NCBI GenBank assembly: GCA_913046365.1
Contig: CAJWRM010000002.1
Location: forward strand, 114,815 to 178,814
DNA from: an uncultured Flavobacteriales bacterium
GTDB lineage: Bacteria > Bacteroidota > Bacteroidia > Flavobacteriales_D > Crocinitomicaceae
Direction of reading: 5' to 3'
DNA: 64,000 nt
Shown here: one piece after another, positions 2-39,781 of the stretch
Layout of the letters: each line of letters begins with the position of its first letter
Position numbering within the stretch: the stretch's first letter is position 1
Translations under genes and position numbers: made by a program
The notes under the pieces: generated by a model
Database searches by the model: none
What the model saw: the letters and a program-made list of their open reading frames with translations, nothing else
What the model was told of the DNA's origin: nothing

Positions 2-2599
2 ATATCAGGAACCTTCGAACACATTCAATACGATCCAATTTCTTATTCAGCCATTCGAAGTGCAAACGAATTGAACTTTGGTAAGTCCTTTATTCCAACA
101 TACGATTTTTCAAAAGCGAAAACAATCGTTTCTTTTGGTGCAGATTTCTTAAGTACATGGCTCATGCCAACTGTTTTTTCATGTCAGTATGGTGAAAAGA
201 GAAACCCTGATGGTAAATGGATGTCAAAGCATTTCCAGTTTGAAGCAGTAATGAGTGTTACGGGTTCTAATGCAGATTATAGAGCAATGACAAAGCCTTC
301 TGAAGAGGAATCTGTACTGCGGTATATGCTGGCAAGACTCAACAATACATCTGCAAATATTTCTAAATCGCTGAAGTCTGTGGCAGATAGGGCAGTTAAA
401 TCGTTAAAAGAAACTGGAAAAGAATCTTTAGTGGTTAGTGGAACAAACAATACAGGGATTCAGCAGCTAGTGAACGAAATCAATAACGTTTTAGGTGCGA
501 ATGGAACGACTATAGATCTGTATAATGAGCTAAATTTATTTCAATCTGAAGAATCTAGAATGTTAGACTTGGTAGAGTCAATGGCAAAAGGAAATAGACC
601 CGATGTTATTCTCTTTTACAACTCCAACCCTGTTTACTCACTTCCAAATGGAGCTGATTTTGCAAAAGAGCTTAAAAATGTGAAGACAAGTATATCTTTG
701 AATTCTCATGCAGATGAAACCTCATCATTGTGCACCTACATGTGTCCTGCCCATCATTCTTTGGAGACCTGGTCTGACTTTACTGCGAAGACAAATCATT
801 ATGCACTAGCACAACCAATGATTACACCTCTTCACGACACTGCTTCACCCATAGAATCTATGATGGTTTGGGCTGGTCAAGCCATAAGAGAAGGTAAAAG
901 TTCTACTGTTGCTTACCATAAAATCAAAGAAACATTCTCAGAATTGAGTGGTGGTGACTTTGACTTAGCTGTACACAATAGTTGTATTGATTTACCTTCG
1001 TCAACAATAGAAGAGACATTAGCTTTCAATACCGCGACAATTTCTAAGACACCGAAATATGACAAAGGACTTGAGCTTGTTACTTATCAGAAGACAGCCA
1101 TAGGAGATGGAAACCAGGCAAGCAATCCATGGTTGCAAGAAATGCCGGATCCAATTTCTAAAGTCACTTGGGACAATTATATTACCATGAACCCTGTTGA
1201 AATGTCAGCAGCGGGATACGCCACTACATTTGACCAAGAGAATGGTTTATCAATGGCAACTATTTCTGCGAATGGTGTGAAATATACTCTACCTGTTTAT
1301 CCTTCACCCGGGCAAGCTCTTGGAACTGTTGGTGTGGCTCTAGGTTATGGTCGAGGTGGTAACGGTGAGAAAATAGGAAAAGCGGCCTTCCAAACAAAAG
1401 AATACGGTGGGCATATTCTAAATGCAAAAGGAAATCCGAAACCAATAGGTGAGAATGCTTTTAGGATGCTTTCGGCCGTTTCAAAAGAGTTCACTTATGC
1501 AAATTCCGGGAAGATTGTTAAAATAGAGGGCGAATACATTATTGCAGCGACGCAAATTCACCATACAGTTATGGCTCGACACTCTATTGTGCGTGAGACT
1601 ACTAAATCCATTTATGATTCACAAGATAAGGAGACATACAATCCAACACATACACTTCAGACCATAGACGATCATGGGCATCATGTTGAAAAGCCCGTCG
1701 GTGAATTTGATTTGTGGGATGAACATCCTGTAGAAAATATTGGGCATCGTTGGGCGATGTCAATCGACCTCAACGCTTGCTTTGGCTGTGGAGCTTGTCT
1801 CATTGCATGTCAGGCAGAGAACAACGTACCTGTTGTGGGTAAAGATGAAGTAAGGCGCGGTCGAGAAATGCATTGGCTCAGATTAGATAGGTATTATGCC
1901 AGTGATGAAGAGGCGACTGTTGGGACACGCAAGGATAAAGATACGTTCTCATACAGTAAGGCTGAGATAGCGGCTGCTAATCCAAAGGTAGTTCACATGC
2001 CTATGATGTGTCAGCATTGCAACCATGCGCCTTGTGAAACTGTTTGCCCTGTTGCGGCAACCACACATAGTAATGAGGGTCTTAACCAAATGACCTACAA
2101 CCGATGCATCGGAACCAGATATTGCGCAAACAACTGTCCTTACAAGGTGAGAAGATTCAATTGGTTCAACTATCCTTCTTATAAAAAGTTTACAGAAATC
2201 AATCCTGCTCAAGATGATTTAGGAAGAATGGTATTAAATCCTGATGTTACTGTTCGAACGAGAGGTGTAATGGAAAAATGTTCCATGTGCGTACAAAACA
2301 TACAAGCCGCAAAACTTACTGCTAAAAAAGAAGGAAGACCAGTTGTAGATGGAGATGTGAGTTCTGTTTGTGGTGATTCTTGCCCAGCTGGAGCGATAAC
2401 ATTTGGTGACTGGAATGATATAAACTCCAATATTAGAAAGAGCTCTGAAGACAAGAGGTCTTATCAAGCCTTGGAGGAAGTAGGTGTGAAGCCTAACGTA
2501 TGGTATAAAGTAAAGGTTCGTAATGAAGAAAACGACTTACTCGCGAAGCTCCAAGAAGAGAAAGAAGTGCATCATGAATCAAATCACAAACAACACTAA
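2..2599 (+). CDS. actB: Alternative Complex III subunit ActB (5'-truncated by window edge)
   Basis: Membrane-associated quinol:cytochrome c oxidoreductase (ACIII) subunit, a fusion of a molybdopterin-oxidoreductase-like domain and a C-terminal ferredoxin-like domain. The frame is open from base 2, so the true start lies upstream; the TTG at 71 is internal. The last third holds four cysteine clusters: FGCGACLIAC, CQHCNHAPCETVC, CIGTRYCANNC with CPYKVRRFNW, and a KCSMC/CGDSC pair, matching three 4Fe-4S and one 3Fe-4S centre of the family. In known ACIII the N-terminal domain carries no molybdenum cofactor. It is the first of seven tightly spaced co-directional genes; ActA (pentaheme cytochrome) would be expected upstream of the window. 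Confidence 0.95.
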   Translation: MSGTFEHIQYDPISYSAIRSANELNFGKSFIPTYDFSKAKTIVSFGADFLSTWLMPTVFSCQYGEKRNPDGKWMSKHFQFEAVMSVTGSNADYRAMTKPSEEESVLRYMLARLNNTSANISKSLKSVADRAVKSLKETGKESLVVSGTNNTGIQQLVNEINNVLGANGTTIDLYNELNLFQSEESRMLDLVESMAKGNRPDVILFYNSNPVYSLPNGADFAKELKNVKTSISLNSHADETSSLCTYMCPAHHSLETWSDFTAKTNHYALAQPMITPLHDTASPIESMMVWAGQAIREGKSSTVAYHKIKETFSELSGGDFDLAVHNSCIDLPSSTIEETLAFNTATISKTPKYDKGLELVTYQKTAIGDGNQASNPWLQEMPDPISKVTWDNYITMNPVEMSAAGYATTFDQENGLSMATISANGVKYTLPVYPSPGQALGTVGVALGYGRGGNGEKIGKAAFQTKEYGGHILNAKGNPKPIGENAFRMLSAVSKEFTYANSGKIVKIEGEYIIAATQIHHTVMARHSIVRETTKSIYDSQDKETYNPTHTLQTIDDHGHHVEKPVGEFDLWDEHPVENIGHRWAMSIDLNACFGCGACLIACQAENNVPVVGKDEVRRGREMHWLRLDRYYASDEEATVGTRKDKDTFSYSKAEIAAANPKVVHMPMMCQHCNHAPCETVCPVAATTHSNEGLNQMTYNRCIGTRYCANNCPYKVRRFNWFNYPSYKKFTEINPAQDDLGRMVLNPDVTVRTRGVMEKCSMCVQNIQAAKLTAKKEGRPVVDGDVSSVCGDSCPAGAITFGDWNDINSNIRKSSEDKRSYQALEEVGVKPNVWYKVKVRNEENDLLAKLQEEKEVHHESNHKQH

Positions 2600-2608
2600 G
2601 ATATAACT

Positions 2609-3997
2609 ATGCAAAAGGAAGCTGCAATAAGAGAACCCCTCATACTTGGTCACAAATCATACCACGACATCACCGAGGATGTTTGTAGACCAATAGAAGA
2701 TAAAGCACCTAGAATGTGGTACATCCTCTTTGGTATTGCTTTGATCATTGGACTTTATGGTGTAGGATGTATTTTATATCTATTAGGCACAGGAGTTGGT
2801 GTTTGGGGGCTTAACAAGACTATTGGCTGGGCTTGGGATATTACAAATTTTGTTTGGTGGGTCGGTATTGGTCACGCTGGAACACTCATATCTGCGGTTT
2901 TACTTCTCTTCAGGCAGAAATGGAGAATGGCCATTAATAGGTCTGCGGAAGCAATGACGATTTTTGCTGTATTTATGGCAGGATTATTCCCGCTTATACA
3001 CATGGGGCGTTTATGGGTCGGATATTGGGTATTTCCTTTACCAAATCAGTTTGGTTCTTTGTGGGTAAACTTTAATTCACCTCTTCTTTGGGATGTTTTT
3101 GCGATTTCGACATACTTGTCTGTATCACTTGTGTTTTGGTATATTGGATTAATTCCTGATTTTGCAACGATTCGAGATCGAGCACGAAAACCTGTCTCAA
3201 AGAAAATGTATTCAATACTTGCTTTTGGATGGTCTGGTAGGGCAAAGCATTGGAATCGTTTTGAGCTAGTTTCATTGGTGCTTGCTGGTTTAGCGACGCC
3301 ACTTGTATTCTCTGTTCACTCTATTGTATCATTTGACTTCGCAACTTCTATTGTTCCAGGTTGGCATACTACAATTTTCCCGCCTTATTTCGTTGCTGGG
3401 GCTGTATTCTCGGGATTTGCTATGGTTCAGACCTTGCTTTTGATTATGAGAAAGGCAATGAATTTGGAAGCCTATATCCATACAAAGCATGTTGAATATA
3501 TGAATATCGTAATCATGGTTACAGGGTCTATTGTAGGTACTGCATACATTACAGAACTTTTTATCTCTTGGTATTCTGGAGTAGAATATGAAGCCTATGC
3601 TTTTATAAACAGAGCCACTGGTCCTTATTGGTGGTCTTACGCGGCAATGATGACTTGCAATGTGGTTTCTCCACAATTGATGTGGTTCCGAAAGTTGAGA
3701 AGAAGTCTTTTGTTTACCTTTTTCATTTCAATTGTTGTAAATATCGGTATGTGGTTTGAGCGTTATGTTATTATTGTAACTTCCATTCATAGAGATTATC
3801 TTCCATCGTCTTGGAGTATGCATTATCCGAGTCCTATTGATATCGGCGTATATATTGGTACCATTGGTTTATTCTTTGTCTTCTTTTTGTTGTTTGCAAG
3901 AGTCTTTCCAGTATTGGCGCTGAATGAAGTAAAATCAATATTGAAAGGTTCAGGACAGTCTTATAAAGAGTCACCTGATTATTATAAAAATCATTAA
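2609..3997 (+). CDS. actC: Alternative Complex III subunit ActC (NrfD-like quinol-binding membrane protein)
   Basis: Integral membrane subunit of ACIII related to NrfD/PsrC, expected to hold the quinol site next to the ActB Fe-S domain. The 462-residue protein is almost entirely hydrophobic segments, about ten helices, with the family-typical start around RPIEDKAPRMWYILF and the motif WWVGIGHAGTLISAVLLLF near residues 80-100. It begins 9 nt after actB and is followed 11 nt later by actD, so it is co-transcribed with both. Confidence 0.95.
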   Translation: MQKEAAIREPLILGHKSYHDITEDVCRPIEDKAPRMWYILFGIALIIGLYGVGCILYLLGTGVGVWGLNKTIGWAWDITNFVWWVGIGHAGTLISAVLLLFRQKWRMAINRSAEAMTIFAVFMAGLFPLIHMGRLWVGYWVFPLPNQFGSLWVNFNSPLLWDVFAISTYLSVSLVFWYIGLIPDFATIRDRARKPVSKKMYSILAFGWSGRAKHWNRFELVSLVLAGLATPLVFSVHSIVSFDFATSIVPGWHTTIFPPYFVAGAVFSGFAMVQTLLLIMRKAMNLEAYIHTKHVEYMNIVIMVTGSIVGTAYITELFISWYSGVEYEAYAFINRATGPYWWSYAAMMTCNVVSPQLMWFRKLRRSLLFTFFISIVVNIGMWFERYVIIVTSIHRDYLPSSWSMHYPSPIDIGVYIGTIGLFFVFFLLFARVFPVLALNEVKSILKGSGQSYKESPDYYKNH

Positions 3998-5305: not shown

Positions 5306-6493
5306 ATGGAATTTCAAATAACACAAAAAGCCAAAAGAAATATTTACCTGTTATTGGGTACTGGTCTTTTATTGACACTTATTGGTGTGCTCACTGGTAT
5401 AGATAGCAATCATTTTTCCACGCGTCTATTGACGAATGGATTAATAGATACCTTTTTCTTTTTTGCAATGGGTTTGGGAGCGCTATTCTTTTTGGCACTA
5501 GCTTATGCTACAGAAACTGGATGGTATGCGTCAGTGAAAAGAATAATTGAGGCAGTAGCAGGATACTTGCCAATTGGAATGGGTTTGATGGGACTTGTTC
5601 TGTTGATTATAACATTTATGGATGGTGCTCATGTTTACCAATGGATGGACCCTGAGGTGGTTGCTCATGATGAGATCATTCAAGGAAAAACAGCTTACTT
5701 AAATCCTATATTCTTTTGGATCAGAACAATCGTGTATTTCGCATGTTATTTTATATTCTTGAGAGGTTTCAAAAGACGATCATTAGAGGAAGATAAAATA
5801 GGAGGTACAGACCTTCACTTTATGAATTATAAGAAAGGCGCGTTGTTTTTGGTATTTTTTGCAGTTTTCAGTTCCACATCTTCATGGGATTGGTTAATGT
5901 CTATTGACGTTCACTGGTTTTCTACGCTATTTGGTTGGTATACTTTCGCAGGCATGTGGTGCACTACAATGGTTGTTTTGATTATGGTGACTTTATACCT
6001 TAAAAAGTTGGGTTATTTAGAAAAAGTAAATGACCACCATATTCATGACCTGGGTAAATGGGCTTTTGCAACATCCTTTTTGTGGTCATATCTCTGGTTT
6101 TCACAATTCATGCTTATTTGGTATGCCAATATTGGCGAAGAGGTAACTTATTTTCAAATGAGAATAGACAATTATAAGTTGCTCTATTTCGGTATGTTCA
6201 TCATCAACTTTGCATTTCCAATGCTGATTTTAATGTCACGCGATGCCAAAAGACATGCCGGTATTTTAACATTCATTGGTTTGATTATTATTGGAGGTCA
6301 TTGGGTTGACCTGTATATTATGGTTACTGCTGGTTCGCTTGGACCCACAGCCCATATTGGATTATTAGAAATTGGAATGGCGTTGACTGCCTTAAGCATT
6401 TTTATATTAGTTATTCTGAGAAATTTAACAAAAGCTCCTTTGACTCCGGTCAACCATCCCTTTTTGGATGAGAGTATACATCATGAAATTTAA
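5306..6493 (+). CDS. actF: Alternative Complex III subunit ActF (second NrfD-like membrane subunit)
   Basis: Integral membrane subunit of ACIII paralogous to ActC, 395 residues with about ten hydrophobic segments. Recognisable parts are the dyad FSSTSSWDWLMSIDVHWFST near residues 190-210 and LWFSQFMLIWYANIGEE near residues 265-280, both typical of the family. It ends 21 nt before coxB, linking the quinol-oxidising complex to the terminal oxidase in one operon. Confidence 0.94.
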   Translation: MEFQITQKAKRNIYLLLGTGLLLTLIGVLTGIDSNHFSTRLLTNGLIDTFFFFAMGLGALFFLALAYATETGWYASVKRIIEAVAGYLPIGMGLMGLVLLIITFMDGAHVYQWMDPEVVAHDEIIQGKTAYLNPIFFWIRTIVYFACYFIFLRGFKRRSLEEDKIGGTDLHFMNYKKGALFLVFFAVFSSTSSWDWLMSIDVHWFSTLFGWYTFAGMWCTTMVVLIMVTLYLKKLGYLEKVNDHHIHDLGKWAFATSFLWSYLWFSQFMLIWYANIGEEVTYFQMRIDNYKLLYFGMFIINFAFPMLILMSRDAKRHAGILTFIGLIIIGGHWVDLYIMVTAGSLGPTAHIGLLEIGMALTALSIFILVILRNLTKAPLTPVNHPFLDESIHHEI

Positions 6494-6514
6494 CCTAACA
6501 AGTCGATAGATAAA

Positions 6515-7900
6515 ATGGAAAAAATTATTATTCTTATTGTCCTTATAACTGGAGTTATCGCTATTGCTCAGCTTGTAAGAGTATACGAGTTAACCTACAA
6601 GCTCAAGAATCGTGGCGAACATGAAATACCAAATAGAGACAACAATTTAAATGCCAAGTTGATGTTGGGTTTTATGTTGTTTCAATTTTTTGGTTTCATA
6701 TATTTAATGTTGAAATATGGTTGGACTGGTAGAGGAGAACCTGCATCTATTCAAGGGGTAGAAACAGATTGGCTATTGAATGTGAATTTTGTAATTATCA
6801 TCGCGGTATTCTTTATCACAAACTTTCTGCTGTTTTACTTCGCTTACAAGTATGTTCGAAAGCCTGGCGTAAAAGCAACCTATTACTCGCATAACAATAA
6901 ACTCGAGATGATTTGGACTATTGTTCCAGCGATAGTTCTAGCAGTCATTATTATTCTAGGTTTACAGTCATGGTCTGAATTAACGGCGGATGCATCCAAA
7001 AAAGCGGAAAAGGTTGAGCTGTTTGCCTATCAGTTTGCTTGGATTGCGAGATACGGTGGTGAAGACAATACTTTAGGTAAGTTCGACTATAAACTGACAA
7101 ATGGAAGCAATGAGCTGGCATTGATGACAGAAAGCACAATCGATACATCTGTTCAAGAAATGGGGAAATCAATTGAAAATGTTGAATTGAAATTAAAGCA
7201 GATAAATTTTGATTACCTGGCTTCCGAATATCGTGGATTAATGGCTGCTTCAGATTACAAGTCCGATGTTGATGCATTGGTTTCGGAGTTATCTTCATCT
7301 GATTTCAATCTTGTTAATGCAGAGGAAAGGTTAAAGCATCTTTATGGTAAACATTCCGGCGTAGATGGGCATATTACTGTTGCTTTAAATGAGCCGAACG
7401 CAGAAACCCAATCAATCATTGGTGATTTGGAGAAGGAACTCTCCATAAAAGAAAGATTGTATAGAAGCTTGGTTCAAATGAAACAAAACCATAATCCTGA
7501 TTTTGATGAGCTTGCACTAAATGATATTATTCAAAAAGACACCTTGTACCTTTGTAAAGGTCGAGAATATGACTTTTCTTTTAGAGCAAAAGATGTGATT
7601 CACTCTGCTTATTTCCCTCATTTTCGGGCACAAATGAATGTGGTGCCTGGAATGCCGACTCGATTTAAATTCACTCCAATATTAACTACACAAGAAATGA
7701 GGGAATCGAAGAAGGACGAAAAATTTAATTTCGTTTTAATGTGTAACAAAATCTGCGGAGGCGCACATTATAAAATGAAAATGATTGTAGTTGTTTATCC
7801 TGAAGCTGAATATGAGACTTGGATGAATTCAAAGAAAAAAGCAACTTTTAAGGATCAATATTTCCCTTCAGAAGCGGCAGAAGAAAAAGTATCTAAATAA
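6515..7900 (+). CDS. coxB: Cytochrome c oxidase subunit II with a large helical insert
   Basis: CuA-bearing subunit that accepts electrons from cytochrome c and hands them to subunit I. Three hydrophobic segments (about residues 1-22, 50-70, 90-112, then 135-150) precede the periplasmic cupredoxin domain. CuA ligands visible are His363 (DVIHSAYFPHF), Cys410, Cys414, His418 and Met421 (CNKICGGAHYKM). Between the first strand (ending near DYKLTNG, residue 198) and the CuA fold (starting near residue 335) there is a stretch of about 130 charged, helix-favouring residues that is far longer than the usual linker; this makes the protein 461 residues. It lies between actF and coxA. Confidence 0.94.
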   Translation: MEKIIILIVLITGVIAIAQLVRVYELTYKLKNRGEHEIPNRDNNLNAKLMLGFMLFQFFGFIYLMLKYGWTGRGEPASIQGVETDWLLNVNFVIIIAVFFITNFLLFYFAYKYVRKPGVKATYYSHNNKLEMIWTIVPAIVLAVIIILGLQSWSELTADASKKAEKVELFAYQFAWIARYGGEDNTLGKFDYKLTNGSNELALMTESTIDTSVQEMGKSIENVELKLKQINFDYLASEYRGLMAASDYKSDVDALVSELSSSDFNLVNAEERLKHLYGKHSGVDGHITVALNEPNAETQSIIGDLEKELSIKERLYRSLVQMKQNHNPDFDELALNDIIQKDTLYLCKGREYDFSFRAKDVIHSAYFPHFRAQMNVVPGMPTRFKFTPILTTQEMRESKKDEKFNFVLMCNKICGGAHYKMKMIVVVYPEAEYETWMNSKKKATFKDQYFPSEAAEEKVSK

Positions 7901-31364: not shown

Positions 31365-31940
31365 ATGTTTTTAGAGCAATTTCCAATACAGAATAGGTCC
31401 AACGGTTGGGTTGAAGTTATTTGTGGATCTATGTTTTCTGGAAAAACCGAGGAACTTATAAGGAGATTGAGGCGTGCAGAGTTTGCCAAGCAAGATTTAA
31501 TCTTATTCAAGCCATCAGTTGATAAAAGATACAGTGAGAATAATGTTGTCAGCCATAGTGGCACTGAATTCAATGCAGTGCTCGTTGCGAGCTCTCAAGA
31601 GATATTAAATAATGTTGAGAATCAAAAGGTTGTGGCTATAGATGAAGCACAATTTTTTGATGACCAGCTTGTCGAGGTTGCGTCTGAGCTTGCTGGACGT
31701 GGAATTAGAGTAATACTTGCTGGTTTGGATATGGATTATACAGGTACACCCTTTGGTCCAATGCCAGCTCTGCTGGCATCTGCAGAATATGTTTCTAAGG
31801 TCCATGCCATATGTGTGTCATGCGGTAACCTGGCCCAATTTTCAAACAGGTTAGTGGCTGACACCGATCAGGTAATGCTCGGTGCAGTTGAAGAATACCG
31901 TCCACTTTGCAGGTCATGCTTTAACAAATCCTCAACGTGA
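31365..31940 (+). CDS. tdk: Thymidine kinase
   Basis: Phosphorylates thymidine in nucleotide salvage. Type II TK features in 191 residues: P-loop GSMFSGKTEELIRRLRRAE, DEAQFFD, and a zinc-binding C-terminal part with CVSCG and CRSCF. Its TGA stop overlaps the GTG start of murF-alr by 3 nt (31938-31939 shared within GTGA), so the two are translationally coupled. Confidence 0.94.
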   Translation: MFLEQFPIQNRSNGWVEVICGSMFSGKTEELIRRLRRAEFAKQDLILFKPSVDKRYSENNVVSHSGTEFNAVLVASSQEILNNVENQKVVAIDEAQFFDDQLVEVASELAGRGIRVILAGLDMDYTGTPFGPMPALLASAEYVSKVHAICVSCGNLAQFSNRLVADTDQVMLGAVEEYRPLCRSCFNKSST

Positions 31941-34219
31941 ATCTACAGCTTACAATAGGTCAGCTATGTAAAATTTTTGAACTTGAGGATAGTACTCAAG
32001 ATCACGCTTTGGTCGTAAATGAAGTTGTTTATGACACAAGGACCCTTGTCCATGGTAGTGGTAAAATGTTTTTTGCCTTAGAGGGTAAATATCGAAACGG
32101 AGCTTCATTTATTGAAGAAGCTTATCGAAAAGGTGTTCGTGTCTTTGTTGTCCAAAAAAAGCCTAATAAAGCATACCTTGATGCGGTTTATCTGCAGGTC
32201 AGTGATCCTTTAGACGGGTTAATGAAGCTTGCGAAATGGCACAGAGCACATTTTGAGATTCCGATAATTGCGATTATAGGAACCCACGGTAAGACTACAA
32301 TTAAAGAATGGCTCGGGTATTTATTAAAGCGAAAGTATAGACTTGTAAAATCTCCAAAGAGCTATAACTCTAAATTAGGTGTTGCCCTTTCTATATTGGA
32401 GCTCCATTCATCTGCAGATATAGGTGTTTTTGAGCTTTCAATTTCTCTTCCACATGAAGGGAAAGTATTCAATGAAATGTTGGCTCCAACTCATGTTGTA
32501 GTTGGTCATATTGGTGATAAGCATAACGGAAATTTTTCTGAAAAGAATGGTAAAAAGATAGAGTACTTCAATTTCATAAAAGGGTGCAAATCAGTTTTTC
32601 AGCTTGAATCTAAACTCGATGATTTCTTGTCGGGAAATAAAGGGGTGATAAAACTTTCATCTTCTGCCTTTCAATCATCACTTGCAAAATTGGGTTTTCT
32701 AGATCAACTAAAAGAAGAAAATGCCATCATGGCGTTGGGTGTAGCAAGCTATTTTGAAGTTAAGATTCCGGAACATATCCAATTTTCAGATATTGCAATG
32801 CGACTTGAAACTTTTGATGGGATTCATAACTCACTTGTGATTAATGATACCTATAGCTTAGACAAAGAATCCTTGGAGGCGGCCTTGCAGTATCAAAGCA
32901 CACTTGCTAAGTCTAAAAAACGAGTTTTGTTGTTACCAAAAGAGGTCACAATCCCCATACAAGAGATAGATGCCTTAATTGAACGTTATGCGCCTTTGAA
33001 ATGTCATTTTTCAGATGAATTAACGCTAGAAGAATCGTCTTTAAATAACGCGGTCGTTTTAGTAAAGGGAAACGCAGGGTCGTCAATGAATAATGTAGCG
33101 CACCTACTTAAACTTAAGCAGCATAGAACTCAAATTAATGTCAACTTGAGTACTTTGAGAAAAAATATTCATACCCTAAAAGACCTTCTTCCTGCGCAAA
33201 CAAAAAGTTTGGTAATGGTAAAAGCCAATGCTTATGGGACAGGAATGAAAAGAACCGCGATATTTATAGAGGAATTAGGTATTGATTATCTAGGTGTAGC
33301 TTATACGGATGAAGGTGTACAGCTTCGAAACTATGGGGTCAAGTGCCCTATTTTGGTGATGAGCCCCGGCCCTGATGATTTTCATGATTGTATAGAGTAT
33401 GACTTAGAGCCAGCAATTTTTTCATTAACGCTTCTAGATGATTTGGTGCGCACTTTGATTTTGAAAAAAAGAATGGCTTTCCCAATACATCTTAAAATAG
33501 ATTCAGGAATGAATCGTCTGGGAATTGAGCCTTCTGAGATCCCAAGTTTTATAGATATACTTCACTCCCAACCAGAGCTTCATTTGAAGGGGGTTTATTC
33601 TCATTTTGCTGAATCAGATAACCAATTAGATCCTTCTTTTACTAAACATCAGTTGGATGTATTCCTTGGTGTATGCGAAATGTTAAGCAAGCATGTTTCA
33701 TACCCCTATATTAAACATATGGCGAATTCTGCAGCGATCATTAACCAACCGAAAGCCGCGTTAGATATGGTTCGAATGGGGCTTATTGTTTATGGAGTAG
33801 CTGATCATTTAAGTGCCAAAAAAGCCCTTGAGCCAGTGATTGAGTGGCGAAGTGAAATTACGCAGATAAAGTACCTTTCTAAAGGGGATACGGTTGGCTA
33901 CAATAGAGCGTTTTTAGCAAAAAAAGAGACTACTATTGCAATTGTTCCGGTGGGTTATGCCGATGGCTTCAGACGATCTTTAGGTAAAGGTAAAGGGACT
34001 GTTTTTATAGGAGGAAAAAGTTGTAAGACAGTTGGAAACGTATGTATGGATATGGTAATGGTCGATGTAACAGGATTAAAGCTTCAAGAGGGCGATACAG
34101 TAGAAATTATAGGTGAAAACCAATCTATTCTTGATTTTGCTGCGCAATTGAATACAATTCCATACGAAGTTTTAACTGCTCTTTCTTTGAGGGTTCACCG
34201 GAATTATATCGTAACTTAG
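31937..34219 (+). CDS. MurF-Alr fusion: UDP-MurNAc-tripeptide:D-Ala-D-Ala ligase / alanine racemase
   Basis: Bifunctional cell-wall enzyme of the Bacteroidota, 760 residues, GTG start. The MurF half (about 1-385) has the ATP loop GTHGKTTIKEW near residue 115 and ENA near 270, but the usual DSYNxxP-type motif reads NDTYSLDKES and the IGEAHxxxF motif reads IGDKHNGNF. The racemase half has PLP-binding Lys429 (MVKANAYGTG) and catalytic Tyr655 (TVGYNRAF), 226 residues apart as in alanine racemases. The racemase appears intact; the ligase half looks divergent. Confidence 0.9.
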   Translation: MNLQLTIGQLCKIFELEDSTQDHALVVNEVVYDTRTLVHGSGKMFFALEGKYRNGASFIEEAYRKGVRVFVVQKKPNKAYLDAVYLQVSDPLDGLMKLAKWHRAHFEIPIIAIIGTHGKTTIKEWLGYLLKRKYRLVKSPKSYNSKLGVALSILELHSSADIGVFELSISLPHEGKVFNEMLAPTHVVVGHIGDKHNGNFSEKNGKKIEYFNFIKGCKSVFQLESKLDDFLSGNKGVIKLSSSAFQSSLAKLGFLDQLKEENAIMALGVASYFEVKIPEHIQFSDIAMRLETFDGIHNSLVINDTYSLDKESLEAALQYQSTLAKSKKRVLLLPKEVTIPIQEIDALIERYAPLKCHFSDELTLEESSLNNAVVLVKGNAGSSMNNVAHLLKLKQHRTQINVNLSTLRKNIHTLKDLLPAQTKSLVMVKANAYGTGMKRTAIFIEELGIDYLGVAYTDEGVQLRNYGVKCPILVMSPGPDDFHDCIEYDLEPAIFSLTLLDDLVRTLILKKRMAFPIHLKIDSGMNRLGIEPSEIPSFIDILHSQPELHLKGVYSHFAESDNQLDPSFTKHQLDVFLGVCEMLSKHVSYPYIKHMANSAAIINQPKAALDMVRMGLIVYGVADHLSAKKALEPVIEWRSEITQIKYLSKGDTVGYNRAFLAKKETTIAIVPVGYADGFRRSLGKGKGTVFIGGKSCKTVGNVCMDMVMVDVTGLKLQEGDTVEIIGENQSILDFAAQLNTIPYEVLTALSLRVHRNYIVT

Positions 34220-35369: not shown

Positions 35370-35891
35370 ATGAATAAAAGAGTAGAGACCGCATTAAATG
35401 ACCAAATTAAAAAAGAAGCATCGTCTTCTCAGTATTATCTTTCTATGGCGTCTTGGGCAGAGTCTAATGGCCTAAACGGAACAGCAAACTTTATGTATAC
35501 CCATTCAGATGAAGAGCGTTTTCACATGCTCAAGCTTGTGAAGTTTGTGAATGAGCGAGGTGGCAGGGCGGAGGTTCCTCAATTAGAAAAACCACCGCAT
35601 GAATTCAAGAACTTAAAGAGTGTTTTTGAATCACTTCTCCAGCATGAAATAGGCGTTACGGCTAGTATCAATAATTTAGTAGACATTTGTCTTCAGGAAA
35701 AAGATTATACGACACATAACTTTGTTCAATGGTATGTTTCAGAGCAGCTTGAAGAAGAAGCTTTGGCGCGCACAATACTTGATAAACTGAACCTGATCGG
35801 AACAGATTCAGGAGGAATGTATATGTTTGATCGAGATATGGAGAATTCTTTAATTCAAGCTAACAATGTAAATGACTCTGCGGAGCAATAG
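35370..35891 (+). CDS. ftnA: Ferritin
   Basis: Non-heme iron storage protein, 173 residues of four-helix bundle. The ferroxidase residues are present: Glu in EASSSQYYLSMASWAE, the Glu/His of HSDEERFHM, and Glu in the later QLEEEALARTILDKL helix. No Met-rich heme site of bacterioferritin is seen. Followed 11 nt later by the large cyclase sensor in the same direction. Confidence 0.95.
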   Translation: MNKRVETALNDQIKKEASSSQYYLSMASWAESNGLNGTANFMYTHSDEERFHMLKLVKFVNERGGRAEVPQLEKPPHEFKNLKSVFESLLQHEIGVTASINNLVDICLQEKDYTTHNFVQWYVSEQLEEEALARTILDKLNLIGTDSGGMYMFDRDMENSLIQANNVNDSAEQ

Positions 35892-35902: not shown

Positions 35903-38900
35903 GTGAAAAAGCTTGTATTTCTTATCATCTTTGTTCCTTGTTTTGCATGGGCGCAATCGGTTTACCGCTTTAATAATTATACGATTAACAATGGCCTGTC
36001 CCAAAGTACCGTAAATACAATTTTACAGGACGACAATAGCGCCTTGTGGATAGGTACCCAGGATGGTTTGAACAGGTTTGACGGCGACAAATTTGAAATC
36101 TTCAATTCAGATGAGGAAGATGGTATTAACAATCCTTTTATTACAAGCTCCGCCAAAACAAAGGATGGTAAGTTATGGTTTGGAACCCACAACGGCCTCA
36201 CAGCATATAGTCCAATAAAGGAGGAATTTCAAACCTACACACCCAGCAATAAAAAAAACCTAGACATCTCATCGATTTCTATTGGAGAAGGAGACGACCT
36301 CTGGATTGCAACCTTAAATCAAGGAGTATTTAGGTTTGATAGTGAAAACAATAATTTTGAAACCCTTAAATGGGGAAATAGTACTCGCGAAATAAATTCT
36401 GCAACGTACGTTGAAAATAGCCTAATAATTCATACAAGTGCGGATGAATTATTTATATATAATTTTCCTTCTAATACCCTGAAGAAGGTGAGGACAGATG
36501 TTTTAGGTTTTGATGATTTTGAAATCTTAAACATCACTATTGCTTCAGATAGTAACATCTATTTAGGTTCAAATGTCGGTGTATTCCAATTAGACATAAA
36601 GTCTCATTGTTTGTTGCGGGAGTTTCAAAATTATCCTGAGCTTCAAAATATTCAAGTGAAGAATATTTGCTTGTCCCAAGGACAGTGGTTTTTTGCTTCA
36701 GCCGCCAATGGTTTATACACCATAGACGAACGCGGAGACCTCATCAATAGCACACAAGATATGTTCCAAAAGAGTGCGCTAATGTATAATGAATTGAATG
36801 TACTTTTCGAAGATAAGAATAAGAAATTATGGATTGGAAGTGACAGGGGGATCTCTAGTTTTGATCCTAAATACTCTGGCTTTATAGGTGTAGGACCCGG
36901 TGCGAATCCTAAAAAGAGTTTACCTTCTCCAAATGTTTGGACCTTCACAGAGGACAAAAGTGGAGATTATTTGTTTGTAGGTACTGACATAGGAATGTCA
37001 CGACTTGATAGAAGGACAGGCATCTTCGAACATTTTAATCGTTTGAATAAAAATGAAGCGAGTTATAAAGTTCTGTCGTCTTGTGCAATTGACTCAAATA
37101 CCGTGTTGGCAGGATTTGAGGATGGACTCTTTAAATTGGAAATAAATGGCGATCAATCCTTCGAGTATACTCGCTTAAATTATGTGAACCCAATCATTTT
37201 ATCTAAGTACAATCGGTTGTACGGTATAGAGAGTCTCGATGAAGAGAATTACCTATTGGCTACGAAAGCTGCGGCGTTTTTATACAATATAAAAACGGGT
37301 AATTCTGTGCGCTTTGAACACAATATAAATCTTCCTCAGGAATCTCTTTCTCCAGGCATCTGTCGGGTGGTATATAAGGATCGAAAGGGTAGGGTTTGGT
37401 TCGCTACAAGCGCTGGAGGAATCAATATGCTAGTCAAGAATGAATCGGGGAATTATATCATCCAGCCACCACCAATTAATAAGAAAATTCTCGAAGTGAC
37501 ACAGGACTATGCAATGGCTATTTGTGACGATGAAAAAGGAAATTTATATGTGGGAACGTCGGGGTCTGGAATGCTATATGTAGATTTTGACTCTGGCGAA
37601 ATCAAAAAAATTGATAAAAAATCTGGTCTTCCAAATAATACCATTTACGGTGTTTTAAATGATGGCAAGCGGATCTGGATTAGTACAAACAAGGGTATAG
37701 CTTCATACAATCCATTAAATGCGGATGTTAAGTCATATCTTGAGGTAAACGGCCTAGTGAGTAATGAGTTTAATTCCAATGCCTTTTTCAATTCTTCTAA
37801 TGGTGAACTGTTTTTTGGTTCGATATACGGATACAATGTATTTAAGCCAGATGAATTGAATGTTGAGAATACAGAGCAAGAAGTCATTATCACCAAATTC
37901 AAATTGAACAATGGTTGGTTAAAGCCTGGTCAAGTCGGATCGCCTTTGAAACAACCTATTGCAAAAACATCATTTATTGAGCTGCCATATACGGACAGAA
38001 GTTTTACCATTCGATTCCAAACTAGTGATTTATCCAATCCTGAATTGACTCATTTTAAGTACGAGCTTATTGGGTCTGGTTCGAATGAAAGTTTCATTGA
38101 AAAAAACCGCGAAATCACTTTTAATTCATTATCTCCTGGAGACTATCAATTAAAGATTTATGCTAAACTAGGTGAGGGTTCTTGGAGTAAAAACCCCAAA
38201 GTTCTTGAAATATCTATTTTACCGCCTTATTGGGGTACATGGTGGTTCTGGACTATTGCCGCTTTGATTATTTCAGTATTAGCGTTTTTATTTTTTAAAC
38301 GAAGAATCGAATCCGAACGTAGAGAACAAGTGAAATTGGAGATAAAGGTTACCGAGAGGACTCGTGAGATTAGCAATCAAAAAACAAGAATTGAAGAGCA
38401 AAGTAAGCTACTTGAAGCTGAGAAAAACAATGTCGTGCGTCAACAAGAGCTTTTGCAAATCGAAAAAGATAATGCTGAACGCTGGTTGGCAAATGCCCTC
38501 CCTGAGGAGGTTGTAAGAGAGCTCAAGGTAAAAGGTAAGGTAGAAGCGAATGCATTTGACAAGGTGACTGTCATGTTTACAGATGTTGTTGGGTTTACAA
38601 ACATTTCAAGGAGAATGAGGCCAAGTAGACTTGTGAAACGTTTGGATATTTTATTTAGAAGATTTGATGAGCTCATTCAAAATAATGATCTTGAGAAAAT
38701 AAAAACCATTGGTGATGCATACATGTGTGCAGGTGGTATTCCAATTGAAAATTCAATAAATCCAATGAATGCCTGTATTGCGGCATTACAAATCCAGGAT
38801 TATATGTCGAAACTAAAGTTTGACGCAATTGCTAACCACAGCGATTATTGGGAGTTACGTCTTGGGATACACACAGGGCCTGTTGTAGCAGGTATAATTG

Positions 38901-39781
38901 GGGACTTAAAGCTGGCTTATGATGTTTGGGGTCCAACGGTTAATCAGGCACAGCAGATGGAAAAGTTTGGCGCACCAGGAGAGGTGACGATTTCAGGAAC
39001 AACCTTTACGTTTATAGAACCATACTTTGAGTGTATACCCAAGGGGAAAGTGAAAATTAAAGGTGGTATTGAGGTGGATATGTACGCTGTGCTAAAAATC
39101 AAGCCGGAGCTTTCGGAAAAAGGAAAAGGGTTGTTCCCAAATGAAAAGTTTAGTGAAATTGTTCAGCTCCATCATTTTAGCTCAATTAAGTATTATAAAA
39201 CCGAGCATTTTGTTTTGGATTATTTAAAGGCCGGGTTGTCAGATAAATTGCTTTATCATTCTGTTAACCATTCCATTGATGTTGTGCAGGCTGTTGAACG
39301 CATCGCGCTTTCTGAGGGAGTAACGGATGAAGGTTTATTCTTATTAAAGACAGCCGCGATTTTACACGATGCAGGTTTTGTAAAGCAGTATGAAAACAAT
39401 GAAAGTATAGGTGCTGAAATGGCGGCAGAGTGGCTGCCTAAATACGGCTATACAGAGCGACACATTAAGACAATAGTAGAACTTATACATGTGACTGAAA
39501 TTCCACATAGGCCAATTAATAAGCTACAGGAGATCATTTGTGATGCCGATCTTGATTACCTAGGACGTGATGATTTTGAGGAGATTTCCAATAGATTAAG
39601 ACTAGAACTTAGAGGTATGGGGAAAATAGATAGTGATCGTACTTGGGATAAGATTCAGGTAGACTTTTTGAAAAAGCACAAGTTCTTTACCAAAACATCA
39701 ATCGCCGCAAGAAGAAAGAAGAAGAAAGAAAACCTAAAGGTTGTAATGAAACGTTTGGATAAGAACGAATATCAAGATTAA
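35903..39781 (+). CDS. Propeller-type transmembrane sensor with class III adenylate cyclase and HD domain
   Basis: 1292 residues, GTG start. Signal peptide (1-18); periplasmic Reg_prop beta-propeller (about 20-670; repeats such as LWIGTQDGLNRFD and LWIGSDRGISSFD); Y_Y_Y module (about 700-770); membrane helix (about 778-797); coiled coil (about 800-860); cyclase domain (about 880-1065); HD domain (about 1110-1250). Cyclase metal ligands Asp894 (FTDVVGFT) and Asp938 (TIGDAYM), adenine-specifying Lys934 and Asp1007, and Asn1014 are present, but the transition-state Arg is Gln1018 (VNQAQQM). The HD domain has His1119, His1123, His1155-Asp1156 (LHDAG) and Asp1214 (DADLDYLG). The signal sensed is unknown; cAMP synthesis with a built-in phosphohydrolase is an inference. 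Confidence 0.85.
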   Translation: MKKLVFLIIFVPCFAWAQSVYRFNNYTINNGLSQSTVNTILQDDNSALWIGTQDGLNRFDGDKFEIFNSDEEDGINNPFITSSAKTKDGKLWFGTHNGLTAYSPIKEEFQTYTPSNKKNLDISSISIGEGDDLWIATLNQGVFRFDSENNNFETLKWGNSTREINSATYVENSLIIHTSADELFIYNFPSNTLKKVRTDVLGFDDFEILNITIASDSNIYLGSNVGVFQLDIKSHCLLREFQNYPELQNIQVKNICLSQGQWFFASAANGLYTIDERGDLINSTQDMFQKSALMYNELNVLFEDKNKKLWIGSDRGISSFDPKYSGFIGVGPGANPKKSLPSPNVWTFTEDKSGDYLFVGTDIGMSRLDRRTGIFEHFNRLNKNEASYKVLSSCAIDSNTVLAGFEDGLFKLEINGDQSFEYTRLNYVNPIILSKYNRLYGIESLDEENYLLATKAAAFLYNIKTGNSVRFEHNINLPQESLSPGICRVVYKDRKGRVWFATSAGGINMLVKNESGNYIIQPPPINKKILEVTQDYAMAICDDEKGNLYVGTSGSGMLYVDFDSGEIKKIDKKSGLPNNTIYGVLNDGKRIWISTNKGIASYNPLNADVKSYLEVNGLVSNEFNSNAFFNSSNGELFFGSIYGYNVFKPDELNVENTEQEVIITKFKLNNGWLKPGQVGSPLKQPIAKTSFIELPYTDRSFTIRFQTSDLSNPELTHFKYELIGSGSNESFIEKNREITFNSLSPGDYQLKIYAKLGEGSWSKNPKVLEISILPPYWGTWWFWTIAALIISVLAFLFFKRRIESERREQVKLEIKVTERTREISNQKTRIEEQSKLLEAEKNNVVRQQELLQIEKDNAERWLANALPEEVVRELKVKGKVEANAFDKVTVMFTDVVGFTNISRRMRPSRLVKRLDILFRRFDELIQNNDLEKIKTIGDAYMCAGGIPIENSINPMNACIAALQIQDYMSKLKFDAIANHSDYWELRLGIHTGPVVAGIIGDLKLAYDVWGPTVNQAQQMEKFGAPGEVTISGTTFTFIEPYFECIPKGKVKIKGGIEVDMYAVLKIKPELSEKGKGLFPNEKFSEIVQLHHFSSIKYYKTEHFVLDYLKAGLSDKLLYHSVNHSIDVVQAVERIALSEGVTDEGLFLLKTAAILHDAGFVKQYENNESIGAEMAAEWLPKYGYTERHIKTIVELIHVTEIPHRPINKLQEIICDADLDYLGRDDFEEISNRLRLELRGMGKIDSDRTWDKIQVDFLKKHKFFTKTSIAARRKKKKENLKVVMKRLDKNEYQD

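Follow-up and report, generated by a model that had tools for sequence, protein, structure and literature searches.

A putative Flavobacteriales sensor that fuses a class III cyclase to an HD domain, with glutamine at the presumed transition-state arginine position

Introduction

Enzymes that make and break the same nucleotide messenger, either fused or paired, are well known for cyclic diguanosine monophosphate (c-di-GMP) and for guanosine tetra- and pentaphosphate ((p)ppGpp). The hybrid two-component systems of Bacteroidota carry a Reg_prop propeller, a Y_Y_Y domain, one membrane helix and a coiled coil ahead of a histidine kinase. For cyclic adenosine monophosphate (cAMP), the make-and-break example found in the literature searched is the plant protein CAPE, which the available sections of two reports describe as a combined adenylyl cyclase with phosphodiesterase in Marchantia and other streptophytes (PMC5159850; PMC8115329), and in which mutation of H199 or H203 abolished phosphodiesterase activity (PMC5159850). 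Here we analyze a sensor gene at 35903..39781 of a 64,000-nucleotide stretch (the window; contig CAJWRM010000002.1, positions 114,815 to 178,814, assembly GCA_913046365.1) from an uncultured marine Flavobacteriales bacterium whose 2.44-Mb genome, in 63 contigs, is 94% complete. Its product shares the front part of the propeller-kinase hybrids, but the output is a class III cyclase followed by an HD domain instead of a histidine kinase.

The likeness to CAPE, as far as the available sections of those reports describe it, is that one predicted membrane protein combines adenylyl cyclase of class III with a cyclic-nucleotide phosphodiesterase of the HD fold (putative in the sensor), and that the essential histidine pair of CAPE, four residues apart, has an invariant counterpart at the same spacing in the sensor. 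In CAPE, however, the phosphodiesterase comes first and is a class I domain, whereas the sensor has the reverse order, a smaller HD domain, an added propeller and, in the window lineage, glutamine for arginine in the cyclase. With its HD domain below the PF00233 cut-off and its domain order reversed, the sensor was rejected as a CAPE member by profile, and the family may best be compared with CAPE in its action. The cyclase half shares with arginine-bearing adenylyl cyclases (the second catalytic half of adenylyl cyclases 8 and 9) the PF00211 fold, the metal aspartate pair, the lysine/aspartate pair and the asparagine, but those enzymes have the transition-state arginine where the window protein has glutamine. 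The HD hydrolases 2pq7, YedJ and YpgQ are closest to the HD domain by profile and Foldseek searches, although their substrates may differ; we know of no fusion of any of them to a cyclase. Glutamine at the arginine position is also reported in several DUF2652 cyclase-like proteins of Bacteroidetes, which in the available part of the source are mostly single-domain, have glutamate with lysine or arginine as substrate residues, and are suggested by the authors to be guanylyl cyclase-like (PMC4886424). They therefore resemble the sensor in the glutamine and differ from it in substrate residues and build.

Domain architecture and the cyclase active site

The sensor gene, identified by open reading frame and Pfam analysis on the + strand (where its features given below and the ferritin gene also lie), begins with GTG and encodes 1292 amino acids in a single open frame. 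A likely signal peptide (about residues 1-18; 35903..35956) was recognized by eye from a hydrophobic stretch at about residues 3-22. It is followed by the Reg_prop β-propeller (about residues 20-650, limits approximate; 35960..37852; PF07494, E 3.4e-26), which would lie in the periplasm, and by a Y_Y_Y domain (residues 711-773; 38033..38221; PF07495, E 7.8e-11). Hydropathy gives a single membrane helix (about residues 780-798; 38240..38296), and a coiled coil and linker, seen by eye, lead to the cyclase (about residues 800-879; 38300..38539). The class III cyclase domain (Guanylate_cyc, residues 880-1063; 38540..39091) matches PF00211 with E 4.6e-46 and 157.2 bits against a curated cut-off of 21.9, placing it within that family. 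The HD domain spans about 185 residues (1095-1280; 39185..39742) with a Pfam core at 1122-1216 (PF01966, E 4.4e-7; 34.6 bits, cut-off 22) and carries the H...HD...D signature of the HD superfamily. The domain chain proposed in the initial annotation, from propeller to HD domain, is confirmed, and its numbering of D894, K934, D938, D1007, N1014 and Q1018 was correct throughout. An assignment as PorZ of the type IX secretion system was rejected, the NCBIfam equivalog scoring 64.9 bits against a cut-off of 260.

To compare the active sites, a fetched part of the loci listed by the scans, together with those of a peptide-pattern scan, was reduced to 122 distinct cyclase-HD fusions, one of them the window protein; 77 are full-length with a propeller. 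Among the six cyclase residues checked, five are invariant wherever covered: the metal residues Asp894 (38582..38584; 120/120) and Asp938 (38714..38716; 121/121), the adenine-selecting Lys934 (38702..38704; 121/121) and Asp1007 (38921..38923; 121/121), and the transition-state Asn1014 (38942..38944; 122/122). The sole variable one is residue 1018, which is Gln1018 (CAG, 38954..38956) in the window protein, glutamine in 18 fusions and arginine in 104, a proportion that is no rate since the fetched places were hand-chosen from the listings. The peptide pattern of that one scan, moreover, included residue 1018, which biases its hits toward glutamine; the order, phylum and genus scans used no such pattern. 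In phmmer alignments to adenylyl cyclases of solved structure, Gln1018 pairs with the arginine of the C2 SRMD motif of adenylyl cyclases 8 and 9, without gaps at that place, and we take position 1018 to be the transition-state arginine site. The earlier claim of an arginine-to-glutamine replacement therefore holds. An asparagine and an arginine form the transition-state pair of adenylyl cyclases, according to the available part of the source (PMC4886424); of the residues of a complete adenylyl cyclase, the window protein has the two metal aspartates, the Lys/Asp pair and the asparagine and lacks the arginine. The fetched loci contain a further 44 distinct cyclases, all with arginine at the equivalent position.

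The glutamine is encoded by CAA or CAG in 18 of 18 proteins; a single base separates these codons from CGA and CGG, which encode the arginine in 47 of the 104 proteins that have it. When columns were sought with one residue in more than 90% of the 18 glutamine proteins and another in more than 85% of 96 arginine proteins (eight far arginine proteins being left out), 1018 was the only one that separated the two sets at this fixed threshold. Among the columns compared, none shows an arginine gained by all 18 glutamine proteins. A core glutamine clade of 13 proteins does have an arginine at 872, in the linker before the cyclase, and Lys1021 (38963..38965; 13/13), both rare or absent in arginine proteins; residue 1021 is methionine in 83 of the 96 nearer arginine proteins and also in four other glutamine proteins (from the loci that we number L042, L079, L214 and L216). 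Thus, of the possibilities raised at the outset, a weak cyclase or a nucleotide sensor is still a fair reading, whereas dependence on another arginine finds no counterpart common to the 18 proteins. A predicted structure of the cyclase plus HD domain had a predicted local distance difference test score (pLDDT) of 55.6 and was not used.

History of residue 1018 and constraint on the cyclase

Judged from the alignment and a quick tree, Gln1018 is inherited in one or two related clades and is not a random change; its presence in 18 of the 122 fusions, in related proteins, answers a check that the initial annotation had proposed. The tree, built from 121 proteins with the fragment L046 dropped and column 1018 left out, and accompanied by a long-branch warning, needs at least two changes at residue 1018. 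A single clade of 17 glutamine rows was not rejected (approximately unbiased test, p-AU 0.189), and one origin is therefore possible, as are two losses of the arginine or one loss and a regain. A group of arginine proteins nests among the glutamine rows in the quick tree, but because the single glutamine clade is not rejected we do not claim a regain.

We then asked how fast each domain diverges relative to the propeller, the ratios being means over pairs that share branches, in nine groups that together comprise 64 of the 77 full-length sequences. The cyclase/propeller distance ratio is 0.33 both in the core glutamine clade (12 proteins) and in a second glutamine group (3), as against 0.13-0.34 across seven arginine groups. 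The HD/propeller ratio is 0.21 in the core clade, 0.38 in the second glutamine group and 0.24-0.46 in the arginine groups. A first comparison of cyclase/HD divergence had given 1.54 and 1.51 in two glutamine groups versus 0.44-1.09 in six arginine groups, but a later one gave 1.44 for a distant arginine group and only 0.87 for the second glutamine group. Decay of the cyclase is not supported, because the glutamine ratio to the propeller, although at the upper end, lies inside the arginine range; on these distances the glutamine cyclase is not clearly under relaxed constraint.

The HD domain and its likely substrate

Eight HD residues are invariant in 122 of 122 proteins: Y1118, H1119, H1123, H1155, D1156, E1167, D1214 and D1216. 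They include the Y1118-H1119-x3-H1123 motif (39254..39271), the H1155-D1156 pair (39365..39370) and Asp1214 (39542..39544), a candidate for the last metal ligand, so that the H...HD...D motif noted earlier is intact throughout. In Q1252-V-D-F1255 (39656..39667) the glutamine is present in 121 and the phenylalanine in 119 of the 121 proteins covered; we take Gln1252 and Phe1255 to resemble the base-binding glutamine and phenylalanine of class I phosphodiesterases. A model of the domain (pLDDT 88.5) was compared with known structures by VIA-align, where the top matches were the phosphodiesterases PDE10A (Z 17.9), PDE7A (17.4), PDE2A (17.3) and PDE5A (16.9), mostly superposing over 190-198 of 221 residues with a root mean square deviation (rmsd) of 2.5-3.1. 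Weak matches to the Pfam family PDEase_I occur in 5 of 34 members (best E 7e-4), and in the window protein the match begins at the YH-x3-H motif.

Genomic context was examined at all 17 HD-only matches shown among those that the phylum scan listed. As a raw count, a class III cyclase occurs within the fetched sequence at nine of the 17, with a weak match (E 6.6e-7) at one of these; the cyclase is fused in one case and 0 to about 5.5 kb away in the others. L047 and L151, two HD loci that came to light in other ways, likewise have a class III cyclase. Because cyclases are fused to or near the HD domain and the domain resembles class I phosphodiesterases, a cyclic nucleotide is favored as its substrate, and of the two possibilities named in the initial annotation the (p)ppGpp-like compound becomes the less favored. 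We infer that the HD domain probably hydrolyzes cAMP.

Several observations weigh against this assignment. In superposition the phosphodiesterases are equaled by a bacterial HD hydrolase, 2pq7 (Z 17.1, 167 residues, rmsd 4.2). Foldseek gives its top ranks to 2pq7 and to structures of the YpgQ type, none of its matches to the HD model being under E 0.001, and the profile search is led by 2pq7 (E 2e-7), followed by YedJ and a Cas10 HD domain. Phosphodiesterases 9A, 5A, 8A and 7A are weak by profile (E 0.04-0.4) and stand among chance-like matches such as troponin. The PDEase_I (PF00233) match in the window protein, at 14.2 bits and E 0.035, is below the cut-off of 24.8; across 296 genomes of the phylum Pfam placed no class I phosphodiesterase over the cut-off and five matches below it. 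Finally, eight of the 17 HD-only loci have no cyclase in the fetched stretch. Given the tie with 2pq7 and its lead in the Foldseek and profile lists, another HD substrate is possible.

Other cyclases and cAMP receptors

The window cyclase is the only PF00211 match in the genome. Across the genus, 75 of 81 genomes have such a match, 66 of the 75 a single one. We found no class I cyclase in the genome, where some cyclase classes were searched, but there is one CYTH protein, and a class IV cyclase is accordingly possible; cAMP could also come from another cyclase type or from import. Proteins with a cNMP_binding domain occur in 72 of the 81 genus genomes. Two points here count against an attenuated cyclase beside a cAMP phosphodiesterase. 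Were the sole class III cyclase dead, the phosphodiesterase would be left without cAMP unless one of these other sources supplied it, which argues for residual cyclase activity; and neither of the genome's two cNMP_binding proteins shows, by eye, an RSA-type cAMP cassette. Nor was one seen by eye in the other CRP-like stretches inspected.

Favored model and alternatives

On balance we consider it about an even proposition that the sensor is a bacterial receptor for making and breaking cAMP, whose cyclase half has been attenuated in the window lineage and perhaps now acts as a nucleotide sensor. The protein would be a dimeric transmembrane receptor in which the periplasmic propeller and Y_Y_Y domain bind a signal, and the helix and coiled coil would relay it to an opposed cytoplasmic pair, in which a class III adenylyl cyclase is set against a cAMP phosphodiesterase of the HD type. 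In most relatives examined both halves look complete, and such a receptor could both synthesize and degrade cAMP. Along the window lineage the inherited arginine-to-glutamine change at 1018 would have weakened the cyclase, whereas the residues that bind ATP and metal, like the HD site, appear to have remained under selection. The cyclase half may then be mainly a slow cyclase, or it may bind a nucleotide and thereby regulate the phosphodiesterase half.

Less probable, but possible, is that the glutamine enzyme is a working, slower adenylyl cyclase in which Gln1018, perhaps with Lys1021, stabilizes the transition state, so that the set point has changed. That no second class III cyclase was found in its genome, that the remaining catalytic residues are kept with constraint inside the arginine-group range, and that Lys1021 is universal in the core clade are consistent with this, as is the glutamine at the same position in some DUF2652 proteins of Bacteroidetes, as given in the available part of the source (PMC4886424). 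The methionine at 1021 in L042, L079, L214 and L216, however, means that compensation by Lys1021 is not general, and the model of cyclase plus HD domain is too poor to help. If instead the cyclase is a relic nearing loss and the receptor only an HD enzyme, which we regard as improbable, the replaced arginine in 18 proteins, the ratio of 0.33 at the upper end of the arginine range and the higher cyclase/HD ratios of the first comparison would be explained; but the binding residues are unchanged in glutamine proteins wherever covered, the propeller-based ratio lies inside the arginine range, and another branch of the family lost its propeller and not its cyclase.

The nearness of 2pq7, YedJ and YpgQ-type structures by profile or Foldseek would fit an HD domain that acts on another nucleotide (deoxynucleoside triphosphates, or an adenosine diphosphate-type, (p)ppGpp-like or 2',3'-cyclic compound) beside a cyclase half that senses or supplies something else, and YpgQ-like HD enzymes have broad substrates, according to the available part of one report (PMC8431786). 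We think this unlikely in view of the class III cyclases at nine of the 17 HD-only loci, the superposition of class I phosphodiesterases over about 190-198 of 221 residues, and the YH-x3-H and QVxF patterns. An anti-phage cyclase of the Pycsar type, suggested by a weak PycC profile match (E 1.3e-8), is hardly credible: the region matched, residues 887-1033, is the core common to cyclases, and the single PF00211 match in 66 of 75 genus genomes is unlike a scattered defense gene. No effector was recognized among the five neighboring genes scanned, of which those with a Pfam match encode a ferritin, a glyoxalase-type protein and a UPF0093 protein; two of the five have no Pfam match, and an unrecognized effector is thus possible.

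A bacterial family with both cAMP halves in one receptor, in which a single catalytic column sets one lineage apart from its relatives, offers a natural experiment on a class III cyclase without the transition-state arginine. A wider generalization, which we hold to be doubtful, is that these are widespread one-protein cAMP switches co-transcribed with ferritin, in which a propeller receptor drives fused synthesis and class I-like hydrolysis. In one lineage the single arginine-to-glutamine change would then have made the synthesis half a nucleotide-dependent gate on hydrolysis, and a receptor once able to increase cAMP would now chiefly decrease it.

Ferritin pairing and distribution

A ferritin gene (35370..35891; PF00210, E 2.3e-41), the only PF00210 match in the genome, ends 11 bases upstream of the sensor gene. 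We examined 76 long-protein loci, defined by a protein of more than 1200 amino acids and enough upstream sequence, a requirement that removed two further long-protein loci; in L152, one of the 76, no propeller is seen. The gene immediately upstream, in the same orientation, encodes ferritin at 53 of these loci, including all 14 glutamine loci in this set. Of 27 non-core loci compared, 21 have ferritin nearby, each of the two genes that lie further upstream is found at 8, and the glyoxalase and ATP synthase genes downstream are found at none, which indicates that the sensor-ferritin pair is conserved while the neighborhood changes. The sensor may therefore be linked to an iron or redox response, a question that the pairing makes testable. 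Further upstream, at 31937-34219 of the window, a long frame contains, by eye, a MurF-like part and then an alanine racemase-like part.

The cyclase-HD query matched 189 of 249 genomes of the order and 184 of 296 of the phylum, fused or not. The architecture, at first thought rare, is widespread in the family and order, the 77 full-length copies having been aligned. In the open-licence literature searched we found no description of a Reg_prop-cyclase-HD protein, and the available part of PMC1183210 contains nothing on a cyclase-HD fusion. A propeller-less branch of 27 proteins of 525-572 amino acids (L080-L087, L090-L094 and kin) keeps the helix, coiled coil, arginine cyclase and HD domain; of the 26 whose surroundings could be read, 23 have no ferritin gene alongside. 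Other arrangements were seen by eye. In L146 and L149 a response-regulator-like domain is fused to the cyclase and HD domain, and an HD relative at L155:2375-4963 stands behind TIR-like and TPR-like parts with no cyclase in the fusion. At L229, in a genome that belongs to the glutamine clade, two 446-amino acid membrane class III cyclases that look alike by eye (2410-3750 and 5453-6793) lie 1.7 kb apart, and the pair adjoins a tyrosine recombinase-like gene.

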